Of a DNA stretch of 64,000 nt, positions 3,785-35,782 are shown piece after piece. The stretch spans positions 3,040,501-3,104,500 of the forward strand of contig NZ_CP019724.1 in the NCBI RefSeq assembly GCF_002005225.1, given 5' to 3'. Position numbers and translations under genes: made by a program. The stretch's first letter is position 1. Every line of letters starts with the position of its first letter. Source of the DNA: Streptomyces pactum (lineage in GTDB: Bacteria > Actinomycetota > Actinomycetes > Streptomycetales > Streptomycetaceae). The notes under the pieces were generated by a model, which saw nothing but the letters and a program-made list of their open reading frames with translations, did not search any database and had not been told where the DNA came from.

Positions 3785-4951
3785 TCAGGCGCTGCGCCGG
3801 GTCACGAACTCGGCCAGCGCGAGCAGGCCGCCCGCCGCCTCCGGGTCGCGCACGGCCCGGGCCAGCTCCTGTACGGCCCGGGCCATCCGGTCGGCCGCCT
3901 GGACCTGCGCCCAGTCCCGGCCACCCGCCCGCTCCACGGCCAGTGCGGTGCGCTCCAGGTCCTCCTCGCCCTCCTCGTACGGCGCCGCGTACAACTCGGC
4001 GAGTTCGGCGGCGGCCGGGGTGCCGGAGGTGAGGGCGGCGACCACCGGCAGCGACTTCTTGCGGGCGGCCAGGTCCGCGCCGGCCGGCTTGCCGGTACGG
4101 CGCGGGTCGCCCCATATGCCGATGACGTCGTCGATGAGCTGGAAGGCGAGGCCCGCCTCGCGGCCGAAGGCGTCCAGGGCCTCGACGTCCTCGGCGGCGG
4201 CTCCGGCGTACAGCGCGCCGAGGGCGCAGGCGCATCCCAGCAGGGCGCCGGTCTTGGCCTCGGCCATGGCGAGCGTCTCGTCGAGGGTGACCTCGCCCGG
4301 GGCGCGCCGCTCCATGGCCGTGTCCGCGTGCTGGCCCTCGCAGAGTTCCATGACGCAGTCGGCGAGCCGGGCGGCGGCCGCCGGCGACGCCGGGTGGGGG
4401 TCGGCGGCGAGCAGCCGCAGGGCCAGCGCCTGGAGGGCGTCCCCGGCGAGGATCGCGTCGGCGTCGCCGAACACGGTCCACGCGGTGGGGCGGTGGCGCC
4501 GGGTGGTGTCACGGTCCATCACGTCGTCGTGCAGCAACGTGAAGTTGTGGACCAGCTCCACCGCCGCCGCGGCCCGCGCCGCCGCCGTCCGCGCCCCGGG
4601 TCCGCCGAGCGCGGCGGCCGAGGTGAGGACGAGCGCCGGGCGGATCGCCTTGCCCGCGTTGCCCCCCGCGGGCGTGCCGTCCGCGTGCTGCCAGCCGAAG
4701 TGGTAGAGCGCGATCCGGCGCATCGAGGCGGGCAGTGACGCGATGGCGGAGCGCAGTTCGGGGTCGACCGACGCCCGGGACTCCCGCAGGAGCACCGTCG
4801 CCTCGTGTCCGTCGGGCCCCGCCGGCCCCTGCCCGTCGGACAACGCCCCCGGCTTCTTCGGCCCCTGCTCCCGCTGCGTGCCGATGTGCCCGTGCCTTTC
4901 CAGCGTCCCGGCGGGGCGACGCGCCTCGGTGGCGTGCCGAGCCTCTGTCAT
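3785..4951 (-). CDS. Polyprenyl diphosphate synthase, likely cargo of the family 2B encapsulin
   Basis: A 388-residue isoprenyl diphosphate synthase with first Asp-rich motif LLHDDVMDRDTTRRHRPTAW and a second motif FQLIDDVIGIWGD, which binds Mg-diphosphate during chain elongation of IPP onto allylic diphosphates. GKAIRPALVL and the ARKKSLP loop are also typical. The first 60 or so residues are Gly/Pro/charged, probably disordered, and absent from ordinary FPP/GGPP synthases. Such tails carry the encapsulation signal in family 2 cargo proteins. It lies 87 bp downstream of and co-directional with the shell gene. The start ATG has a near-ideal GGGGGAGGTGA. Product chain length cannot be read with confidence. 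Confidence 0.9.
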   Translation of the reverse strand: MTEARHATEARRPAGTLERHGHIGTQREQGPKKPGALSDGQGPAGPDGHEATVLLRESRASVDPELRSAIASLPASMRRIALYHFGWQHADGTPAGGNAGKAIRPALVLTSAAALGGPGARTAAARAAAAVELVHNFTLLHDDVMDRDTTRRHRPTAWTVFGDADAILAGDALQALALRLLAADPHPASPAAAARLADCVMELCEGQHADTAMERRAPGEVTLDETLAMAEAKTGALLGCACALGALYAGAAAEDVEALDAFGREAGLAFQLIDDVIGIWGDPRRTGKPAGADLAARKKSLPVVAALTSGTPAAAELAELYAAPYEEGEEDLERTALAVERAGGRDWAQVQAADRMARAVQELARAVRDPEAAGGLLALAEFVTRRSA

Positions 4952-5038
4952 GGACTCACCTCCCCCATTCGCCCGTCTCCGCACCCCCGGGGTGTACCCG
5001 CCCGGGAGGGCGGGGACACGGCGTTCGGGAGACCGGCG

Positions 5039-6445
5039 TCACTGCCAGCGGCCGATCTCGACGTTCTCCAGGACGCCGAGCGCGTCGGGTACGAGGACCG
5101 CGGCCGAGTAGTAGGCCGTGACCAGGTACTTGATGATGGCCTGCTCGTTGATGCCCATGAAACGCACCGACAGACTCGGCTCGATCTCGTCGGGGATTCC
5201 GGTGGCACGGAGGCCGATGACGCCCTGGTCCTGTTCGCCGGTGCGCATCGCGATGATCGAGGACGTACGGGCCTCGGTGACCGGGATCTTGTTGCAGGGG
5301 TAGATCGGCACACCCCGCCAGGTCGGGATGCGGTTGCCCGCGATGTCGATCGTCTCGGGGACGAGCCCGCGCTTGTTGAGCTCCCGGCCGATCGCGGCGA
5401 TCGCGCGCGGGTGGGCGAGGAGCAGCTTGGTGCCGCGGCGGCGGCTCAGCAGCTCGTCCAGGTCGTCCGGGCCCGGCACGCCGTCGTGCGGCTGGATCCG
5501 CTGGTCGTACTCGCAGTTGTGCAGCAGGCCGAACTCGCGGTTGTTGACGAGCTCGTGCTCCTGACGTTCTTTCAGCGCCTCGACCGTCAGCCGGAGCTGC
5601 TGCTCGGTCTGGTTCATCGGCTGGTTGTAGAGATCGGCCACGCGGGAGTGGATGCGCAGCACGGTCTGGGCGACGCTCAGTTCGTACTCGCGGGGCCGGG
5701 CGTCGTAGTCGACGAAGGTGTGCGGGATGTCCGGCTCGCCGCTGTGACCGGCGGAGAGGTCGATCGCCTTCTCGCCGAGCCGGTTGGTGCGCTGCTCCGG
5801 GATCGAGCGCCGCTCCTCGAGGTGCGTGCGCAGTGATTCCGCGCGCTCCGCGACCTGCTCCACCTCCTGGCGGGGCAGCACGAGCACCGTGCAGGCGGTG
5901 ACGGTGCGGGCGGTGTACTCCCAGATGGCGTCCCCGTCGAGCAGCGCCTGGTCACCGAAGTAGGCGCCGTCGGCCAGGACCCCGAGCACCGCGTCGTCGC
6001 CGTAGGGGCCGGTGCCGACCTTCTCCACCTTGCCGTGCGCCAGCAGGTAGACCTCGTCGGCCTGGCCGCCGAACGAGGCGATCACCTCGCCCGGGCCGAA
6101 CTCACGCTGCTCACAGCGCTGCGCGAGTTCCGAGAGCACCTCCTCGTCCTCGTACGACCGCAGGGCCGGCAGCTCGCCCAGTTCGGCGGGGATGACCTCG
6201 ACCCGGTCGCCGGTCTTCACGAACGTCACCCGGCCGTCGCCGACGGCGAAGGTCATGCGCCGGTTCACCCGGTACGTGCCGCCCTGGATGTCCACCCACG
6301 GAAGCGTGCGCAGCAGCCAGCGGGAGCTGATCTCCTGCATCTGAGGAACGGACTTGGTCGTGGTGGCCAGGTTCCGCGCGGCCGCCGTGCCAAGACTCTG
6401 CTGCGGCCTGGCCTGCTCGGTGCGGACCTCTTCGCCTACCGACAT
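5039..6445 (-). CDS. Family 2B encapsulin nanocompartment shell protein with cyclic-nucleotide-binding domain (EshA-like)
   Basis: A 468-residue protein. An N-terminal arm (about 1-90) is followed by a Crp/cAMP-type domain (about 90-210), with the phosphate-binding-cassette-like stretch [20 protein letters not shown] and a preceding [20 protein letters not shown]. The rest (about 215-468: [79 protein letters not shown]) is the HK97-fold shell region found in EshA/MMPI-type proteins, now classed as family 2B encapsulins. These self-assemble into virus-like shells that hold an enzyme cargo, here presumably the polyprenyl synthase encoded next. The cassette lacks the usual Arg of true cAMP sites (DAIWEYTA in place of a canonical RAA), so ligand binding is uncertain. 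Confidence 0.92.
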
Positions 6446-33138: not shown

Positions 33139-34515
33139 TCACCGCACGACGGGCCTGACCAGCAGGTCGTGCGGGCGGAGCGTGATGCCCACCCGGACCG
33201 CGTCGTTCGAGCCCGCCACCTGCTCGAAGCGGTACTTCGTGGCGAGCGCCGCCGTGATCAGCGTGAGCTGCGCCATCGAGAAGTGGTCACTGGGGCACTT
33301 GCGATTGCCCACGCTGAACGGCTTCATGGCGAATCTCGGCACATCCGTCGCACGGTCCGGAAGCCAGCGGTCCGGGTCGAACTCCAGGTTGTCCGCGTAC
33401 GACTTCGGATCGCGTTGGATTGCGTACGGACTGTAGATGATGTCCGACCCGGCCGGAATGCGATAGCCACCGAGTTCGGTCTCGACGACCGCGCGCCGCG
33501 TCAATACCCATACCGCGGGACGCAAACGCATGGCCTCCACGATGACATTGCCGGTGTGCGTGAGCTTGCGGACGTCCTCGAATGCCACAGGACGGCCGCC
33601 GGTGACCGCTTCGACTTCGTCGCGTATGCGGTCGGCATGTTCCGGGTGTTCGGCAAGTGCCTGCAGCAACCACATGATCGTGGAGGCGATGGTTTCACTG
33701 CCGGGGGTGAGTATCGCGACGACCTGGTCGTGGATCTCCTGTTCCCCGATGGGGTCGCCATTGTCGTCCTTTGCTTCCAGCAATGCTGTCAGCAAATCGT
33801 CCGGCTTTTGACCGGATGTGCGGCGCTCGGCGATGATCTCGTCCACCAGCAGGTGCAGATCGGCCAGCGCGTTGTTGAATTCGCGATTAGCCGGGAGCGG
33901 CAGCCGGTAGAGCGGTCCGAGCGGGACCACCATGCGCCGGTACATGCCCCGGAAGACGGTGGCGAGCGCGACGCACAGCCGCTCTGCCCGCTCGTCCATG
34001 TACTGGCCGCGCAGCAGACAGCGGGCGGCGACGCGCACGGCGACCCGGAAGGACTCGGAGGTGGCGTCGACGGTCCGCCCCGGCTGCCAGCGCTCGGTGA
34101 GGGCGTGCGCCTCCTCCTCCATGATCGGCCCGTAGGCGGGGATGGCGTCGAGCTTGAACGCCGGCTGGATGGTGCGCCGCTGGCGGCGGTGGAGCGGGCC
34201 GTTGGCGGTCGCCACGCCCTCCTTGCCGAGCAGGCCCTCCAGCGACTCCCACAGCGGACCCGCTATGTGGAAGTCGGGGCTCAGGGCCAGGGCGCCGGTG
34301 AGCTCCGGGGTGGTGACCGCGTAGACGGTCTTCGGTCCGAGCTTGATGCGCACGATGTCGCCGTGGTCGCGCAACTGCGACATGTAGGCCAGCGGGTCGC
34401 GGGCCAGCTTCCAGCCGTGGCCGAGGAGCGGGACGCCGCCGCCCGCCACGGGCGGCACGCGCAGCTCACGTGTCTCTTCGGTCCGGGTCTCGGGGTTGAC
34501 GGACTCGACGGTCAT
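33139..34515 (-). CDS. cyp170A1: Cytochrome P450 CYP170A1, albaflavenone synthase
   Basis: A 458-residue P450 converting epi-isozizaene through albaflavenols to albaflavenone. The haem loop [14 protein letters not shown] holds the axial Cys; helix K has ExxR in IVEAMRLRP; the I-helix reads [15 protein letters not shown]. The stretch [13 protein letters not shown] near residue 250 contains the DDxxD-type motif linked in the S. coelicolor enzyme to a second, farnesene synthase activity. Its ATG overlaps the eizS stop by 4 bp (ATGA). Codons in the middle of the gene are less GC-rich at third positions than its neighbours. Confidence 0.95.
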
Positions 34516-35603
34516 TTCTCACCTGTCGCTTCGTTGTTGACGTACGGGGGCGTGGACCGGTCGTCCCAGTTGTCGACCATGTAACGGCCGGACTCGTGGT
34601 GGAACCAGTAGACGGAACTGAACCAGTTCCGCATATTGCCGACGTTCGCCCGCACGGCGCCGCTCAGTTCCTTTCCGCGTACGGTCCCGTCGTCGAGTTC
34701 GTCGGCGAACCGCAACGCGTCCTGTTCCACGGCGAGAAATTCGTTAATGCATTCCTCGACGCGCCGCCGGACTTCTCCGATTGCTTCTTCCAGGGTCAGC
34801 CCGTGATGGGCGATGAGACTGATTCCGAGATTGTGCACCTCGTCGCCCGCTATTTCCTTGGGCAGCGAGCAGAGGTCGTTGTACCAGGCGGCGAATTCCT
34901 GGCTGAGCAGCGCCGCCCTGCGGTATGCCGGGTGCTTTCGAACGGTGTCCGGCAGCTCGCACCCCGCGCTCGGCTCGAGCAGGTCGGTCCAGATCCAGTG
35001 CGCGAAGGTGAGCCGGCGCAGTTCGAGGTACTCCTCGACACCGGGCACGATTCCACGGGTGCGGTTGTGGAATTCCCGGTCGTACGCCTCGATCACCGCG
35101 TGGAAGTGCCGGGCGAACCGGGCGTTCCACGTCGCCGGCGGCGGCAGGAAGGCGTAGAGCCGCCGCACGCTGTCCGCGAACCCCGCAACCAGCGTGTCCT
35201 CGTGGTGCAGGTGGTCCTCCGGCGAGTCGAGTGCCGTGTGCAGTCGGCTCCGCAGTCGCCGCCAGGCGGCCGGACGGCCGTGGACGATGTCCCGGTCGTG
35301 CCGGTCGTCCCAGACGAAGAACCACGCGCTGTAGTCCGCTATCGCCTGCATGACCTCGTCGGGGGCGCCCAGGTAGTACCCCGCCATGAGGTCCGTGTAG
35401 CACAGGCCATCGGCATATTCCTCGATCTTGTCCGCCGGCATGAGCCGTTTTTCGAGCAGCCAGGTACGGGTCTTCTCCTGGAGCTTCGGCCAATACGGGT
35501 GCAGTTGCCGGGGAAATGCCGCCTCGATCACCGGAAGGCGCAGTGATGGCGGTACTGCGACCGCGGTCGGTGTCGCTGTGGTGCCGTGTGAGAAAGCATG
35601 CAC
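34512..35603 (-). CDS. eizS: epi-Isozizaene synthase (sesquiterpene cyclase)
   Basis: A 363-residue class I terpene cyclase turning farnesyl diphosphate into epi-isozizaene. The Asp-rich motif DDRHD is at residues 99-103 and the NSE motif NDLCSLPKE at 242-250 (N242, S246, E250). It is two residues longer than the 361-residue S. coelicolor enzyme as I recall it, because of a PPP insertion in FLPPPATWN (153-160). GTG 35603 with GAGAGGGG upstream gives the known N-terminus (MHAF...). First gene of the two-gene albaflavenone operon. Confidence 0.96.
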
Positions 35604-35782
35604 GAACAAACCCCTCTCAGCCGCCGGTGGCGCACCCCTCGCGCTGAGCGGGGCGTGCGCCGTTGCGTATCCCCGCACTTCCCATTCAGCACCACAACTG
35701 ACCGTTCTGGGAACGGATTTGCTTCATTCGCCACCCCCCGGTGCCGGAATTCTCCTGGTGTGTGGCAGGTTCCGGCAGACGA

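Follow-up and report, generated by a model that had tools for sequence, protein, structure and literature searches.

The window analysed here, a stretch of 64,000 nucleotides of the Streptomyces pactum genome, carries a family 2B encapsulin shell gene and, behind it on the same strand, a gene for a polyprenyl transferase (Table 1). The shell protein scores 768.7 bits against the curated family 2B model NF041163 (cut-off 400) and spans model positions 1-450 of 450. The synthase reaches 487.7 bits on the curated polyprenyl transferase cargo model NF041169 (cut-off 450) and 201 bits on PF00348. The longest frame of the synthase covers positions 3785-4984 with a GTG start and 399 aa. The ATG at 4951 is preceded by a strong Shine-Dalgarno sequence (GGAGGTGA) at a spacing of 6 nt. 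Counted from this ATG, the gap between the two genes is 87 bp, and together with the two synthase profiles this confirms the co-directional polyprenyl synthase that an earlier note on the same DNA had placed 87 bp downstream of the shell gene. With the automatic choice of start, 82 residues precede the conserved YHFGW in this protein. The S. pactum genome contains a single PF19307 match and six polyprenyl synthase matches. Flanking genes of the pair include an acetyltransferase, a nickel superoxide dismutase frame and an amidase, and no terpenoid partner was found among the conserved flanking genes.

Table 1. Features of the shell-synthase locus and of the eizS region in the window, with the basis of each assignment.
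Feature	Position	Strand	Basis
Family 2B encapsulin shell gene, 468 aa, ATG start	5039..6445	(-)	NF041163 profile
Shell N-arm, residues 14-36	6338..6406	(-)	column entropy; comparable stretch in family 2A chain 8t6r
Cyclic-nucleotide-binding-like domain within shell, residues 91-212	5810..6175	(-)	PF00027, entropy
Trp175 codon, tip of phosphate-binding cassette	5921..5923	(-)	W in 40/43 dereplicated shells
HK97-type shell domain, residues 216-466	5048..5800	(-)	PF19307
Polyprenyl transferase, putative cargo, 388 aa from ATG 4951	3785..4951	(-)	NF041169
Low-complexity, probably disordered synthase tail, residues 1-47	4811..4951	(-)	charge-hydropathy; length highly variable across orthologues
Candidate docking block, residues 11-27 (RRPAGTLERHGHIGTQR)	4871..4921	(-)	dN/dS; pattern recurrence
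First aspartate-rich motif DDVMD, Phe five residues ahead	4514..4528	(-)	motif scan
eizS	34512-35678	(-)	NF045483, 742 bits, cut-off 675
eizS and its P450 together	33139-35678	(-)	profile matches

The C-terminal half of the shell protein matches the sequence profile of the SrpI-like, HK97-type family PF19307 with 453.6 bits (cut-off 22.8). Among solved structures, the chains 9bhu, 9bix and 9bje come closest, with alignments starting at residues 6-15 and ending at residues 465-467, and chain 9bhu_A alone aligns with 662 bits across residues 6-467. The N-arm, inserted domain and HK97 domain of these solved family 2B shells are colinear with those of the window's shell. Conservation was assessed in 43 shells of less than 85% identity, comprising 39 from the collected loci, the window's own and the three solved chains. 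Mean column entropy in this set was 0.70 for the N-arm versus 2.55 for residues 1-13, 1.51 for the inserted domain and 0.77 for residues 232-467. Some database records name homologues of the shell Crp/Fnr regulators. The likelihood that the protein is such a regulator, or the relic of a phage capsid, is negligible though, given that the NF041163 cut-off is exceeded while the CRP model reaches just 23 bits versus 266 and the phage capsid model 32 versus 75.

The N-arm pattern SLGTxAARxLATTTK is near-invariant in the 43 shells and can also be made out in a family 2A chain. Its resemblance to the terpene-cyclase motif GPTGLGTSAAR has a shuffle p of 0.004-0.006 for one hand-made form and 0.11-0.15 for the other, both forms having been picked post hoc. 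Cargo proteins may imitate the N-arm of the shell. A text search of the accessible parts of PMC8346489 and PMC12407261 returned no mention of such imitation.

The inserted domain of the shell matches PF00027 (cNMP_binding) with 65 bits at residues 114-201, as an insertion colinear with that of 9bhu. Arginine is absent from residues 165-179 in the phosphate-binding cassette, as the earlier note had observed; the tip arginine associated with cAMP binding is therefore missing. The arginine of cGMP-dependent protein kinase aligns with shell residue 173, and counted from CRP the equivalent position is residue 175, the site of the conserved tryptophan. Residue 165 is acidic (D or E) in 36 of the 43 shells. 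The accessible text of PMC12407261 states, second-hand from an earlier preprint, that family 2B inserted domains bind no cyclic nucleotide. Judging from the residues of the cassette, a working cAMP pocket is unlikely, and the domain probably senses no cAMP. The suggestion of the earlier note that the ligand might be something other than cAMP thus gains support. Conservation of Trp175 suggests a different ligand or a structural role above the pore.

Pairing of an encapsulin with a prenyl synthase is common in the genus and of an already published kind. Among 150 Streptomyces genomes sampled, 147 contain a shell match above the NF041163 cut-off and 114 a synthase match above the NF041169 cut-off. 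In 14 named control genomes, weak shell matches (9 genomes) and weak cargo matches (all 14) were found, none of them over either cut-off. The synthase lies directly behind the shell gene in 112 of the 114 genomes, 97 of these from listed places and 15 by inspection of fetched stretches. The remaining two synthases are one at a contig end and one lacking a shell in the fetched stretch. Similarly, of 81 loci made up of the best 80 of 584 matches plus the S. pactum locus, 80 have the synthase downstream of the shell gene. These include 78 frames and two contig-end cuts (L068, L077), and at L048 the synthase is split over two frames. On a metagenome-assembled Streptomyces contig (L018, 3361-11360), the 8 kb downstream of a family 2B shell gene contain no polyprenyl transferase. 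The 4.6 kb fetched at one locus (L095, genome G076) contain a synthase exceeding the cargo cut-off but no shell; shell matches occur elsewhere in that genome. No shell was present in the fetched stretches of 6-7 kb that hold 20 below-cut-off synthase paralogues from 19 genomes. Across the phylum, 13 of 246 genomes have a shell at E 1e-60.

The accessible text of PMC8346489 reports 900 family 2B operons with polyprenyl transferases, 888 of them in Actinobacteria. Like the window, these combine a shell containing a cNMP domain with a neighboring synthase; their synthases have a disordered N-terminus, which is probable for the window's synthase as well. The proposal of a family 2B shell and polyprenyl synthase operon is therefore supported, as both dedicated cut-offs are exceeded and the type is published. 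The available portion of PMC12407261 describes a family 2B shell that has T=1 symmetry and measures 28 nm, the inserted domains lying above the two-fold pores. The Streptomyces lydicus system covered there has two shells, in contrast to the one shell gene found in S. pactum. Terpene cyclase encapsulins of family 2B share the shell family with the window but have as cargo a terpene cyclase with GPxGLGT-like motifs instead. Screening titles and abstracts, we recognized no experiment on polyprenyl transferase cargo, which is weak evidence of absence as preprints and most subscription papers lay outside the coverage.

The synthase retains its catalytic motifs. The first aspartate-rich motif (FARM) lies in the context NFTLLHDDVMD, with an aromatic residue at position -5 and no insertion. 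This corresponds to the pattern of type-I (archaeal-type) GGPP synthases, an aromatic residue five positions before a FARM without insertion, in the available portions of PMC9385802 and PMC4244643. DDxxD was matched in 116 of 118 operon-linked synthases and Phe occupies position -5 in all 116, with a search pattern that itself excludes insertions. The same signature (Phe at -5 plus DDxxD) occurs in most of the paralogues examined, and some database records label close homologues FPP synthase. The signature points to a short prenyl diphosphate as product, with GGPP (C20) more likely than FPP.

The window's synthase begins with a tail of 47 residues on the disordered side of the charge-hydropathy boundary, in which VILMFYWC residues make up 9% versus 26% in the remainder, a statement about composition only. 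The length of such tails was compared across the 118 operon-linked synthases by taking the best start according to Shine-Dalgarno score and counting residues ahead of the conserved 37-residue stretch in front of YHFGW. After exclusion of seven unusable starts, 111 synthases were left: 21 with tails of at most 12 residues, 20 with tails of 13-25 and 70 with longer ones. In a tree of 39 synthases and an outgroup, 17 short-tail proteins with predicted tails of 4-9 residues form a single clade (support 100/99, with a bootstrap not fully settled). The synthases of L063 and L077, not included in the tree, likewise have very short predicted tails. Within the short-tail clade, 7 of 17 starts are without a Shine-Dalgarno match, but these lie just 0-50 nt from the stop of the shell gene. 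Unlinked paralogues (four from S. pactum and 20 others) have fewer residues before YHFGW than the window's synthase, yet overlap the operon-linked range, and the N-termini of the 20 paralogues whose fetched stretches contain no shell overlap those of short-tail synthases. Since both short and long tails occur in operon-linked synthases and paralogues overlap with them, a long tail is not a defining feature of the operon-linked enzymes. The earlier note had described a long disordered tail absent from ordinary synthases. By composition, the window's synthase has a low-complexity tail of 47 residues, whereas tails of such length are not universal among orthologues.

Tail-mediated loading of cargo, which the earlier note extended from family 2 to this locus, is established in the accessible literature for cysteine desulfurase, whereas for terpene cyclases it is a proposal. 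The extension to polyprenyl transferases is not supported in that form, as the accessible text of PMC8346489 describes their N-terminal regions as disordered, 50-100 residues long and without a conserved targeting motif. Our data differ from that description in two respects, namely predicted tails of just 4-9 residues in some operon-linked orthologues and a constrained block in one clade. Operon-linked orthologues with tiny tails imply that, provided all of these enzymes are cargo, loading must involve something besides the tail. The synthase could also be an operon partner acting in the cytosol, with the shell enclosing something else. This would accommodate a clade that retains the operon with almost no tail, as well as the missing motif, and according to the same accessible text the cargo assignment was based on gene neighborhood. 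Yet adjacency of synthase and shell in 112 of 114 genomes and a constrained block within the otherwise drifting tail of the window's clade make a cytosolic partner unlikely.

The constrained block comprises residues 11-27 of the tail. Within the group of the window's closest relatives, eight sequences gave a dN/dS of 0.33 in the block, 1.59 before it, 0.90 after it and 0.17 in the core, these being short segments compared without a significance test. The block has a pS of 0.367, so synonymous change is not reduced and the constraint seems to act on the protein. Of 37 held-out tails, 16 contain a strict pattern of the block, compared with a mean of 0.02 after shuffling, and 18 contain a loose one, compared with 0.87. 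In simple identity to the window's synthase, the 37 held-out sequences reach 0.57 within the block, modestly more than the 0.48 of the preceding stretch, with 0.36 for the stretch that follows. Several long-tail lineages lack the block. We regard residues 11-27 as a candidate docking motif of the window's clade, identified by comparing sequences. Alternatively, the tail could be a neutral extension without a loading role, any loading being left to the (D/E)G(H/Q)EA segment or the folded core. The flanking tail indeed evolves with dN/dS near or above one, 21 of the 111 synthases with a usable start have hardly any tail, and EA at residues 50-51 is present in 37 of 37 held-out sequences, with unlinked paralogues differing there by eye. 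The low dN/dS of the block at an unreduced pS and its recurrence in held-out sequences speak against neutrality of the entire tail, which we consider improbable overall, though a serious contender.

A general targeting motif for the tails of polyprenyl transferases was rejected. An unbiased gapped search for four-residue patterns in 27 dereplicated long tails yielded a best pattern shared by 6, within the range of maxima from 20 shuffles (4-6). A hand-made ERxxIG pattern is present in 9 of the 27 long tails versus 1.2 expected, with the pattern chosen post hoc. A relationship between the tail block and the GPxGLGT motif of terpene cyclases was likewise rejected, the shuffle p being 0.09-0.7 when the consensus was compared and 0.4-0.7 with the tail of the window's synthase.

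The window also encodes EizS, as the earlier note had recognized, along with the associated P450 (NF051859, 864 bits, cut-off 700). EizS uses FPP. The gene is real, but its link to the shell-synthase pair is weak because eizS lies ~28 kb from the shell gene, EizS has no cargo signature (62 bits against a cut-off of 1200 on one cyclase cargo model and 36 against 400 on the other) and an FPP-using enzyme faces a synthase with a GGPP-type signature. In-frame stops were flagged in 9 of the 64 eizS matches listed for the genus sample. The distance between eizS and the synthase is 22-39 kb in all 56 genomes with both on the same contig, and four more pairs are on different contigs. The synthase is present in 60 of 63 eizS genomes versus 54 of 87 eizS-less genomes, counts uncorrected for kinship. 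Short-tail genomes are mostly without eizS and long-tail genomes mostly with it. Tail length was rejected as support for a partnership with EizS, because 17 of 18 short rows belong to one clade and the association is thus close to a single event.

S. pactum has five terpene-synthase domain matches, and no NF041167 match was found in the genome at 1e-50. A geosmin-synthase-like two-domain cyclase (L088, 1255-3444, (-)) scores 1123 bits on the encapsulin cargo model NF041168, just below the cut-off of 1200, and lies ~1 Mb from the sole shell gene. A motif scan of the fetched S. pactum cyclase loci, including this one, revealed no GPTGLGT- or LGTSAAR-like strings. Cargo-family terpene synthases from other loci (L122, L126, L127, L129, L132, L193-L212) carry a GPxGLGT-like motif followed by SAAR or an AGLH-like string. 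The scan required such a motif, so the count of 25 out of 25 is not independent. A second cargo encoded in trans is possible but unsupported. EizS or the geosmin-synthase-like cyclase might serve as second cargo or as dedicated user of the synthase product, which the steady distance, the co-occurrence with the synthase, the near-cut-off score of the two-domain cyclase and the single shell of the genome would favor. We consider this very unlikely given the low scores of EizS on the cargo models, the lack of cargo-like strings in the scanned loci and the 54 of 114 synthase genomes without eizS. The steady distance fits plain synteny.

We suggest that the locus is quite probably a family 2B encapsulin operon of the type that combines one shell with a polyprenyl transferase. 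By analogy with the published shell, 60 copies would assemble into a T=1 particle measuring ~28 nm, the cNMP-like domains being exposed on the exterior above the two-fold pores. The synthase would be the native cargo and make a short prenyl diphosphate inside the shell; the gating of this reaction by a ligand, which the earlier note envisaged, is a conjecture. More tentatively, the tail might help loading in the window's clade through residues 11-27. If related lineages take up this enzyme even though it has no long tail there, another surface must contribute. A broader scheme would combine two modes of loading with a family-wide pocket. The window's clade would rely on RRPxGTxERHxxIGTQR in a drifting tail, a sister clade that lost or never had the tail would rely on the folded enzyme, and the Trp-tipped pocket would receive another ligand. 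We put this scheme forward as a speculative and rather doubtful extension.

What is new is limited in extent: a long tail is not found in all orthologues, a single block of it is constrained in the window's clade, and the tip of the cassette is a conserved tryptophan. Operons with and without a tail constitute a natural experiment on cargo loading. The comparison yields a block of 17 residues and one conserved pocket residue as targets for experiments.
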